64,000 nt of DNA from an uncultured Acidimicrobiaceae bacterium (GTDB lineage Bacteria > Actinomycetota > Acidimicrobiia > Spongiisociales > UBA5794). Positions 51,992-56,818 of the stretch are shown one piece after another (the stretch's first letter is position 1; every line of letters begins with the position of its first letter). Position numbers and translations under genes: made by a program. The notes under the pieces were generated by a model, which saw only the letters and a list, made by a program, of their open reading frames with translations, did no database searches and was not told the DNA's origin. The stretch is taken from NCBI GenBank assembly GCA_947258985.1, contig CAMYKI010000012.1, positions 49,364 through 113,363 of the forward strand, given 5' to 3'.

Positions 51992-53815
51992 TCAGCGCTG
52001 TTTCGCCCGCTTGCGATCGCTCTCGACGAGCAGCCGCTTCCTCACCCGGATCGCGGTCGGTGTTGCTTCAACCAGTTCGTCTTCCGCAATCCACTCGATT
52101 GCGGTTTCAAGAGTCAGTTGTTTGTGAGGCTTCAGCTTGATGGCTTCGTCGCTGCTGTGGGTGCGGATGTTGGTGAGCTGTTTGCCTTTGGTCGGATTGA
52201 CCACCATGTTCTGCGGTCGCGATGCTTCACCGATGATCATGCCTTCGTAGACCTCGACTCCGGGTCCCAAAAAGAGTTCGCCGCGCTGTTGCAGGTTGTC
52301 GAGAGCAAACCCGGTCGTCTTGCCCTTACGGTCGGCGATCATTGCTCCACCGGTCCGGTGGGGGAGGTCACCGGCCCAGGGCATCCAGCCGGCGTGGTGC
52401 TGGTGTATCAGTGCCGTACCCCTGGTTGCCGTCATCAAGAGGGAACGAAAGCCAAGCAGCCCTCGCGCCGGGGCTTCCAGGGTGACGATGGCGCGTCCGG
52501 TGTCACCGGGACGCAGATCGGTGACCTTGCCCTTGCGGGGCGCCACCGTCTGGGTTACGACACCAACGTGCTCGTCGGGCACATCGACCACGGCGCGCTC
52601 GACTGGTTCGTGGGGTGACCCGTCGATTGCCCGAATGATGACCTCAGGCCTGCTTACCTGGAGCTCGTATCCTTCACGTCGCATCGATTCGATCAGTACC
52701 GCAAGCTGCAGCTCGCCCCGACCGGCCACTTCGATGATCTCCGGTGATGGCGTTGAGCCGATTCGGATCGACACGTTGCCCAGTACTTCCCGCTCCAGCC
52801 GGTTCCTGATCTGACGCGACGTCAGGTACTTCCCTTCGCGCCCTGCGAGAGGCGAAGTGTTGACGCCAAAAGTCATGCGGAGCACAGGCTCATCGATCTC
52901 GATGCGGGGCAGCGGAATCGGATTATCGGCGTCCGCAAGAGTGTCGCCGATTTCCACCTCGGGGAAGCCCGCAACTACAAAGAGATCGCCGGCGACTCGT
53001 TCGTCGATCTCGGCCCGTTCCAGACCGGAGAAGCCCATGAGCTGGGTGAGTTTCCGCCGCAGCGGAGGTTCCTCGTCGTTCGAGTGACAGAGGACAACCT
53101 GGGTCCCGCTGCGCATCGTGCCCTCTACGACACGACCGATGGCGAGCCGCCCCAGGTAGTCGGAGGCATCAAGATTGGTCACCAATGCTTGCAGCGGGGC
53201 TTCCGGATCACCCGACGGTGCCGGGATCGTCTCGAGGATCGTGTCGAGCAACGGACTGAGATCGGCGTCCAACTCAGGGATTCCGGTGCCGGCAATAGCG
53301 CGTCCTTCGCGGGCGACCGTCGAGATGATGGGAAACTCTATGTGGTGATCCTCGGCGTCGAGGTCGAAGAAGAGCTGGTACACCTCATCTGCAACTTCAG
53401 CGAGCCGGGAGTCTGGACGATCGACCTTGTTGATCACCACCACGGCCGGCAGGCCGCGGGCGAGTGCCTTGGACAACACGTAGCGGGTCTGCGGCATCGG
53501 CCCTTCGGCGGCATCGACGAGAAGTAGTACGCCGTCGACCAGGGTGAGCGCCCTCTCTACCTCGCCGCCAAAGTCGGCATGGCCGGGTGTGTCGACCAGG
53601 TTGATCCGGGTGCCTTGCCAGTCGATCGACGCGGCCTTTGCCAGGATCGTGATTCCTCGCTCGCGTTCTTGGTCGTTGGAATCCATCACCCTGTCTACGA
53701 GCGCTTCGTGGGACTCGAAGACGCCGGTGGCGCGCAGCATGGCGTCGACCAGGGTTGTCTTGCCGTGGTCGACGTGCGCGATCAAAGCGATGTTGCGGAA
53801 GGGAGTGCGGGACAT
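51992..53815 (-). CDS. typA: Translational GTPase TypA/BipA
   Basis: [48 protein letters not shown], full-length BipA architecture. Confidence 0.96.
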
Positions 53816-54092: not shown

Positions 54093-55079
54093 TCAGGCGT
54101 GCGGGAACCGGTCGAGAGCCAGGTCGTTGATGACGCCGGCCATCTGTTTTCTCGTAGCCGGGCCAACCGGCATGCCGACCCCGTCGGCGATGCGGTTCAT
54201 CATCTCGAAGTTGCCGATCACCGCGGCCGCATCCACCGCGGCCTCCGGCCCGAGGGCCGTCACGACCGCCTGGCGCGCCGGTGCGATGTCATGACCGGAG
54301 AGCGTGGCGTTGACATAGGCGATAAGTTCGGTTCCGCCGGGGATGAGCGGGTTGCCTTCCCCGGTTGCGATCGGGAGCAACTCGACGCTGGCGCTGGTTT
54401 CTTCGATGCTCCAACTGAGCATCCTCACGTGCGCCAGAGTTCAGAAGAAGCACTCGTTGATCGATGACGTGCGTGAGGCGACGAGCTCGATCTGTGCTCT
54501 GCTCAGCCCCTTTGTGATCGCCGGATCACCCATTTCCTGAAAGGTCAGGTAGGCGGGGCCGTGGAGAGCTTCAAGCGCCTCCATCTCGGCTGGGACGGCC
54601 GAGAGCGAGGTCGGGATCATGGGTGGTCCCACCATCGGTACCCAGGCCTTGGTAAGCGTCGGTGCCGGGTCCGGGATGGCTCGGCTGGGCTCGCCGGGTT
54701 CCGCCCGGGGGAGGGGTTCGACCGGGATCCCCATGGCGCGGTGGAAGGTGTCGACGGCGGTGACCTGGGAGACGACACCGATCAGCTCGACGTAACCGTA
54801 CGAGTCGAGACCCCCGTTCTTCCATTGTGCGATGAGTCCGGGGGTAACTGCCGAGGGCTTGGCGGATAACTGGGCTGCTGCGGCTGCCGCGGGCTCCGAG
54901 AGGTTCGGTTGGGTTCCGGGTTCTCCGCCGTCGTATGCGGCCCGGGCGACCGAAGCGATGGCGATGCGCTGCTCGCCGCGCCACCAGGTGCCGGGGGCGG
55001 CAAGGCGGCCCCAGACATCACGGAACGCGTCGGCGAGGTCTGGGCGGACCAATAGCGTCGAGGTGGTGAAGTCGAACAC
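54093..55079 (-). CDS. Candidate selenoprotein: AhpD/carboxymuconolactone-like protein with in-frame TGA read as selenocysteine (CxxUxxxH)
   Basis: ORFs 54441..55079 and 54093..54428 are in the same minus frame, separated only by TGA (54441..54443) and 4 sense codons: ...LSRAQIELVASRTSSINECFF-[TGA]-TLAHVRMLSWSIEETSASVELL...; motif equals AhpD CxxCxxxH with U at Cys 2; GTG start. Confidence 0.75.
54405..54423 (-). promoter_or_regulatory. Candidate bacterial SECIS stem-loop
   Basis: mRNA sense GATGCTC-AGTTG-GAGCATC, perfect 7-bp stem, 5-nt loop with G at loop position 2; loop begins 24 nt after the TGA. Confidence 0.6.
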
Positions 55080-55234
55080 GACGACGAGGCTAGCTTGGTC
55101 GTGGTCTCAGCATGTCCCTGGCAGTGCGGGATTGGCCGGTGTCCTGCCAACAAGTTCCAGCTCGGGACGCGAGTCCCTGTTCCGTGTGCTTTCCGGCCCT
55201 ACAGGCGGGGACACATCGGCGCGATAGTCGCCAT

Positions 55235-55525
55235 ATGACTTCAACGGTTTTTGAATCAATGACGCTTGAAGTGAGGTCTGGCCTCTTCTCTGCCCTCGGC
55301 GATCCAATCCGCTTGCAGATTCTCGACGAGCTTGGCGGATGCAAGACCTGTGTCTGCGATCTCCAGCAGACAATGGGCATCGCTCCGAACCTGCTGTCCT
55401 ATCACCTGCGGGTATTGCGCGAGGTTGGGTTGATTGAAGCAACCCGGCGGGGCCGTTGGGTCGATTATGAGCTGGCGTCAGCCGCGGCCGACCTCATCGG
55501 CGCGGCGTCGCCGTTCGAATCGTGA
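55235..55525 (+). CDS. ArsR-family transcriptional regulator
   Basis: LFSALGDPIRLQILDELGGCKTCVCDLQQTMGIAPNLLSYHLRVLREVGLIEATRRGRWVDYEL. Confidence 0.92.
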   Translation: MTSTVFESMTLEVRSGLFSALGDPIRLQILDELGGCKTCVCDLQQTMGIAPNLLSYHLRVLREVGLIEATRRGRWVDYELASAAADLIGAASPFES

Positions 55526-56571
55526 CAATCGAGCTGCAAGCGGTTGGGCGCGAGCGGTTGCGTCTCTGGGGCGGGCTTGGTGTGGCGGTCGTGGTTTGGG
55601 CGTTGCTCTACTCCCTCAACAAGCCTTTCTGGGACTGGCTCCTGTTCGATTGGCTCGGCCTGGATCCGCAGACTCACCTCGGTTCGGCCATCGAATTCTT
55701 CTTCTACGACACCCTCAAGATTGCCCTCCTCCTTACCGGGATCATCTTTGCGGTGACGGTGCTGCGCAGTTTCATGAGCGTGGAAAGGACCCGGGCGCTG
55801 CTCGGCGGAAGGCGAGAAGGGGTCGGCAACGTGGCCGCAGCCGGGCTTGGAGTTCTAACACCGTTCTGCTCATGCAGCGCCGTTCCCGGATTCATCGGGT
55901 TTGTTGCCGCCGGTGTTCCCCTCGGCATCACGATGAGCTTCCTCATTGCCAGCCCGATGGTCAATGAAGTTGCGATTGTCCTGCTGTACGGGTTGTTCGG
56001 CTGGAAGGTGGCTGCCACCTACGTGGGGGCCGGCTTGGTGCTGGCTGTTCTTGCCGGCTGGGTCATCGGCCGATTACGACTCGAGCGGCATGTCGAGCCG
56101 TTCGTATTCGAGACGACCCTGCGCGGTCAACCAATCGACCTCTCAGCAAAGCTGAGCTGGGAGGATCGGTTTGCGATGGGTCGCGAGGAGGTGGCCTCCA
56201 TCCTTCGCAAGATCTGGCCCTACCTGGTGATCGGGATCGGCATCGGAGCCGCCATCCACGGCTGGGTGCCGGAAGACTTCTTCGTCGACGCGGCCGGTCC
56301 GGACAACCCGCTGGCCGTGCCGGTGGCGGTTGGTATCGGGGTGCCCCTGTACTCCAACGCAGCTGGGGTGCTTCCGCTGGTCGAGGCCTTGCACGCCAAG
56401 GGTTTGGCGATGGGGACAGTGCTGGCGTTCATGATGTCGGTCGTTGCACTGTCGGTGCCGGAGATCGTGCTGCTGCGCCGGGTGCTCAAGCCGAGGCTGC
56501 TCGTGGTATTCGTCGGCGTCGTCGCCGCCGGGATCCTGTCGGTGGGTGTTCTGTTCAATCTGGTTCTGTAA
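55522..56571 (+). CDS. DUF318-type permease (ArsP/UPF0718-like)
   Basis: GVGNVAAAGLGVLTPFCSCSAVPGFIGFVAAGVPLGITMSFLIASPMVNEVAIVLLYGLFGWKVA. Confidence 0.9.
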   Translation: MTIELQAVGRERLRLWGGLGVAVVVWALLYSLNKPFWDWLLFDWLGLDPQTHLGSAIEFFFYDTLKIALLLTGIIFAVTVLRSFMSVERTRALLGGRREGVGNVAAAGLGVLTPFCSCSAVPGFIGFVAAGVPLGITMSFLIASPMVNEVAIVLLYGLFGWKVAATYVGAGLVLAVLAGWVIGRLRLERHVEPFVFETTLRGQPIDLSAKLSWEDRFAMGREEVASILRKIWPYLVIGIGIGAAIHGWVPEDFFVDAAGPDNPLAVPVAVGIGVPLYSNAAGVLPLVEALHAKGLAMGTVLAFMMSVVALSVPEIVLLRRVLKPRLLVVFVGVVAAGILSVGVLFNLVL

Positions 56572-56581
56572 GGGAGTAGTA

Positions 56582-56818
56582 ATGAAGATCAAAGTCCTCG
56601 GACCGGGGTGTGCCAATTGCGCAACGCTCGAAAAGCGAACTAGCGATGCGTTGGCCGCGACAGGGGTGTCGGCGACGGTCGAGAAGGTCACCGACTTCGC
56701 CGAAATCGCATCGTACGGCGTCATGTCGACACCAGCGCTGGTGATCGATGAACAGGTGGTGGTGTCGGGTCGGGTGCCCAAGGTGGATGAGATCGGGGCG
56801 CTATTGACGCGGTCGTGA
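56582..56818 (+). CDS. Small thioredoxin-like (redox-active disulfide) protein
   Basis: MKIKVLGPGCANCATLEKRTSDALAATG...GVMSTPALVIDEQVVVSGRVP. Confidence 0.9.
   Translation: MKIKVLGPGCANCATLEKRTSDALAATGVSATVEKVTDFAEIASYGVMSTPALVIDEQVVVSGRVPKVDEIGALLTRS

Follow-up and report, generated by a model that had tools for sequence, protein, structure and literature searches.

A member of the AhpD-related family NF041238 with a putative selenocysteine codon in an uncultured Acidimicrobiaceae bacterium

Does the TGA that interrupts an AhpD-like redox motif in this actinobacterial DNA end a short protein, or would it be read as selenocysteine (Sec) within a longer one? A first-pass annotation of the 64,000-nucleotide stretch that we analysed (the window) proposed an AhpD-like CxxU selenoprotein, and we find this reading supported by the family to which the gene belongs, a conserved TGA, a natural Cys version, a bSECIS-like hairpin, and the presence of selA, selB and selD. 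With a probability of about 0.95, we consider the locus a bacterial selenoprotein gene whose UGA is read as Sec via SelB and the hairpin, giving one 328-residue two-domain AhpD-fold protein with a C-terminal CxxU...H.

One reading frame across an internal TGA

The two minus-strand open reading frames described initially are both present in the sequence and make up one frame split by a single TGA. The upstream one (54441..55079, -) encodes 212 aa and is terminated by the TGA at 54443..54441, after which the frame stays open for 115 codons, up to the TGA at 54095..54093 (Table 1). Translation with TGA as U places the codon where it had been proposed, as the second redox residue of CFF-U-TLAH. 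A standard gene caller would end the protein at residue 212. The start codon assignment is supported because relatives start at the same codon: the ATG of those beginning MFDF lines up with the GTG at 55079. The sequence after the TGA, noted earlier as protein-like over 111 residues counted from a GTG at 54428, is 70-73% identical at the protein level to that of four same-genus relatives. On either side of the TGA, differences from these relatives are most frequent at third codon positions; for instance, L055 differs from the window gene after the TGA at 28, 18 and 60 sites of codon positions 1, 2 and 3, respectively. Judged from these sequence comparisons, the coding continuation past the TGA is far beyond chance.

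Table 1. Features of the window discussed in the text
Feature	Position	Strand	Basis or remark
Putative selenoprotein gene, family NF041238 (AhpD_rel_CFYUT)	54093..55079	-	328 residues, start codon GTG at 55079
N-terminal domain, predicted AhpD-like helical fold without CxxC/CxxU motif	54606..55079	-	AlphaFold2, Foldseek
C-terminal AhpD core domain with redox motif	54096..54560	-	Pfam CMD, TIGR01926, PDB
In-frame TGA, putative selenocysteine, residue 213	54441..54443	-	motif N-E-C210-F-F-U213-T-L-A-H217
bSECIS-like hairpin GATGCTC-AGTTG-GAGCATC	54405..54423	-	predicted fold; begins 17 nt after TGA
Final stop TGA	54095..54093	-	translation with TGA=U
typA/bipA	51992..53815	-	Pfam BipA_C; downstream of selenoprotein gene, same strand
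ArsR regulator, ArsP_1 permease, small thioredoxin (Thioredoxin_3)	55112-56818	+	divergent from selenoprotein gene

With respect to the neighbourhood, the four same-genus relatives (L055, L056, L057, L058) have the genes in the same order, selenoprotein-typA-PLP enzyme, which may be mere relatedness, and a functional link to typA was not adopted since this order is conserved within the genus only. A link to the divergent ArsR/ArsP/thioredoxin cluster was not adopted either, as the cluster has no match in the flanks of relatives L055-L065. No relatives were found among the viral contigs searched.

A known family and its TGA across the order

The readthrough protein matches NCBIfam NF041238 over profile positions 1-356 of 357 (E 3.9e-80, 269.8 bits; curated cut-off 175 bits). 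This family, AhpD_rel_CFYUT, is named 'alkylhydroperoxidase-related (seleno)protein' in NCBIfam, and the window gene carries its motif, CF[YF]-U-T/V with TGA at the Sec position. A 2026 review (PMC13188914) has an entry for NF041238 under the name 'AhpD-related protein (hypothetical protein 1, Sargasso Sea metagenome)', with CxxU. In the Sargasso Sea selenoproteome of 2005, four Sec sequences are given for hypothetical protein 1, along with the motif CXXU and a SECIS prediction (PMC1088965). Because NF041238 corresponds to this protein, both the family and its selenoprotein nature are already known, and the window gene is a new example, not a discovery. It shares with this family the full-length match, CxxU, a SECIS-like hairpin and the length class, and, apart from reading CFFUT where the family has CFYUT, shows no essential difference. 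As for other models, Pfam CMD is borderline (E 8.7e-5, 22.9 bits vs a cut-off of 23), and the AhpD subfamily model TIGR00777 is absent among the NCBIfam matches listed for the window protein. TIGR01926, the model of an AhpD-like, peroxidase-related selenoprotein (CxxU), stays under its cut-off of 81.8 bits (E 4.9e-9, 36.2 bits): its proteins have the C-terminal core, CxxU...H and Sec/Cys exchange in common with the window protein, but are single-domain proteins of ~180 residues, whereas the latter is predicted to have two domains.

Within the window's order, a strong family match was found in 55 of 138 genomes. The order-wide search yielded 57 strong matches, 56 of which contain exactly one internal TGA and the remaining one none. 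The position of this TGA was inspected in those order-wide matches having a locus, and it falls at the CxxU position in all 28 loci whose motif was read out (28 of 29 new loci; for L125 the motif pattern found nothing), several of these loci being the same genes as L055-L058. Comparison further shows the TGA at the same position in 12 of 12 aligned members, and it is present in all eight relatives from the genome collection, of which five are titled Acidimicrobiia; C210, U213 and H217 are invariant in the family alignment. Homologues with either TGA or Cys aligned to U, which the first-pass annotation suggested looking for, are thus both on record, as the sole match without TGA (G521) reads CFYC, with TGC (Cys) at the U position and the hairpin sequence absent, and more distant AhpD-like proteins have Cys at the Sec position. 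Sec appears to be retained almost everywhere the family occurs in this actinobacterial order, and the Sec members and the natural Cys version without hairpin offer a neat contrast for studying the benefit of Sec.

Hairpin, Sec machinery and rival explanations

The predicted hairpin downstream of the TGA coincides with a stretch of frozen synonymous positions that spans codons +8 to +12. Leu at +8 is CTC in 12 of 12 members despite six possible codons, Ser at +11 is always AGC or AGT in these 12, and the third base of codon +12 is C in every one of them although the amino acid varies; the loop G (G29) is invariant across members. Most other nearby degenerate positions vary, with exceptions such as Phe at -2, which is TTC in 12/12. 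Pair cells are kept at 85.7%, compared with 24-46% for slid partners, in a hairpin that was chosen from these same sequences. Covariation in the hairpin was not above the shuffle control, three of the seven pairs never varying, and because the pair count is no higher than in shuffles, it is its position and the synonymous constraint that speak for the hairpin. This constraint, read from aligned sequences, fits what is expected for a bacterial SECIS.

Absence of Sec machinery had been named beforehand as counting against Sec, and here the answer is divided: the protein genes are present in the same genome, with selA (423 bits) and selB (over cut-off; 245.8 bits when neighbouring pieces are included) on contig C8 and selD (402.6 bits) on C15, but tRNA-Sec is seen just as a 3' fragment. 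Searches of the assembly (92.9% complete) with Rfam, ARAGORN, two DNA patterns and a custom covariance model built from 12 relatives turned up no intact tRNA-Sec, the genome scans scoring ~150 candidates per genome. The 3' two-thirds of a tRNA-Sec lies at G000:C41:27051-27129 (-) (L110 17052-17130; L108 1501-1579), scoring 53.9 bits vs 110.7 for an intact one and lacking both the D arm and the acceptor strand on the 5' side; an incomplete tyrosine integrase (PF14659) and a toxin gene of PemK type lie between it and the contig end. The fragment is probably the end (att) of an element inserted in selC, with the complete tRNA presumably at the unassembled other end; integration at selC has been documented (PMC7266877). 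Ten family-carrying genomes were tested for tRNA-Sec (the window's own, G157, G178, G189, G398-G403), and eight have an intact one over cut-off; in G398, selC is truncated where its contig ends, and therefore fragmentation losses do occur in such assemblies.

Several further observations were made in these genomes. In the window's genome, SelD is itself encoded by a selenoprotein gene with an in-frame TGA in GAGUACK (G000:C15:39819-40745; L017), and a second AhpD-like selenoprotein gene, assigned to TIGR01926 and with motif CHYU, lies at G000:C40:36656-37234 (L022). The 6C RNA family has a sub-threshold match on C15 (L025 8909-8981; 40 bits vs 47, E 0.09). Furthermore, six contigs of G399 (C264, C550, C648, C395, C231 and C1020; L111, L115-L119) carry extra tRNA-Sec 5' halves with 0-3 mismatches, which diverge at the anticodon arm and might be remnants of att sites or copies carried by elements; G399, of 5.4 Mb, is possibly a mixed bin.

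Could Sec decoding have been lost recently, so that the gene is non-functional despite belonging to a selenoprotein family? The remnant of selC beside an integrase and a toxin gene would fit an element that disrupted it, yet an element that enters a tRNA gene as a rule has one complete copy of the tRNA at its other end, selA, selB, selD and two further TGA-containing genes are kept without decay, and G398 illustrates how assembly fragmentation can remove selC from view; we regard such a loss as improbable. Less probable again is that the TGA is a true stop or a recent nonsense mutation, leaving a pseudogene with just the 212-residue product, a view with which the missing intact selC would agree, but against which stand the recurrence of the TGA at this position over genera and families of the order and the conservation of the downstream part as protein. 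A sequencing or assembly error for TGC or TGT has the slimmest chance of the three: although Cys is what G521 and the more distant AhpD-like proteins have here, independent MAGs have the same TGA, accompanied by a conserved hairpin that is absent from the Cys version. The pseudogene and sequencing-error readings were rejected, and so was a general code change.

Proposed chemistry and domain architecture

In the favoured selenoprotein reading, SelB, guided by the hairpin 17 nt past the TGA, would bring Sec-tRNA to the UGA, and the product would be a single chain in which an AhpD-fold domain without redox residues precedes the domain with CxxU...H. Sec insertion itself we infer from sequence, and the peroxidase-type chemistry via CxxU is suggested by fold and motif. 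By analogy with AhpD-like enzymes, the U213 selenolate would most likely attack a peroxide or other oxidised substrate, C210 would then resolve U213 as a selenenyl-sulfide, and H217 would assist the redox cycle; the invariance of these three residues is consistent with an AhpD-like redox cycle. With mycobacterial AhpD (1knc, 1gu9) the window protein shares the AhpD fold and a CxxC-type active site, with Cys in the former and Sec in the latter, and the structural match of these enzymes to the N-terminal domain is weak.

The long N-terminal region had been thought possibly undescribed, which does not hold, as it is part of the NF041238 model matched here and common to the whole family. Structure prediction makes it a probable second domain of AhpD fold, lacking the motif, a structural addition to a family listed as of function unknown. 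AlphaFold2 modelled the whole protein from a 12-sequence alignment with pLDDT 90.8 and pTM 0.92, and the N-terminal domain alone with pLDDT 82.8. The C-terminal domain has a PDB sequence match (6k40, E 1.2e-10). In Foldseek searches of the PDB, the whole model aligned best with AhpD/peroxidase-related proteins, across roughly half of its length, no match reaching E 0.001; when the first 158 residues were used by themselves, the 22 top-ranking matches were all AhpD/peroxidase-related, with probabilities of 0.85-1.00 and E-values of 0.02-0.5. BLASTP of the N- against the C-terminal half gave no match, and profile-profile comparison of the halves gave the expected register at a probability of 0.6% (E 0.097); because this sequence comparison is not significant, it is structure that argues for a duplication.

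Our most speculative proposal is reminiscent of Sestrins, which contain two AhpD-like domains in one chain. NF041238 proteins might be two-domain AhpD-fold selenoenzymes in which the Sec domain is under the control of the motif-less N-terminal domain, the latter binding a small ligand or substrate; this would be a bacterial counterpart of the Sestrin architecture, with the roles of the domains exchanged. We hold this to be unlikely as it stands. Foldseek aligns Sestrin2 (5dj4, 5t0n) over the whole length, with TMq of about 0.5, E-values of 0.05-0.2 and an rmsd of about 12.6 A. Nothing points to leucine sensing in the window protein, and the redox residue of Sestrins sits in the N-terminal domain, whereas that of the window protein lies in the C-terminal one.
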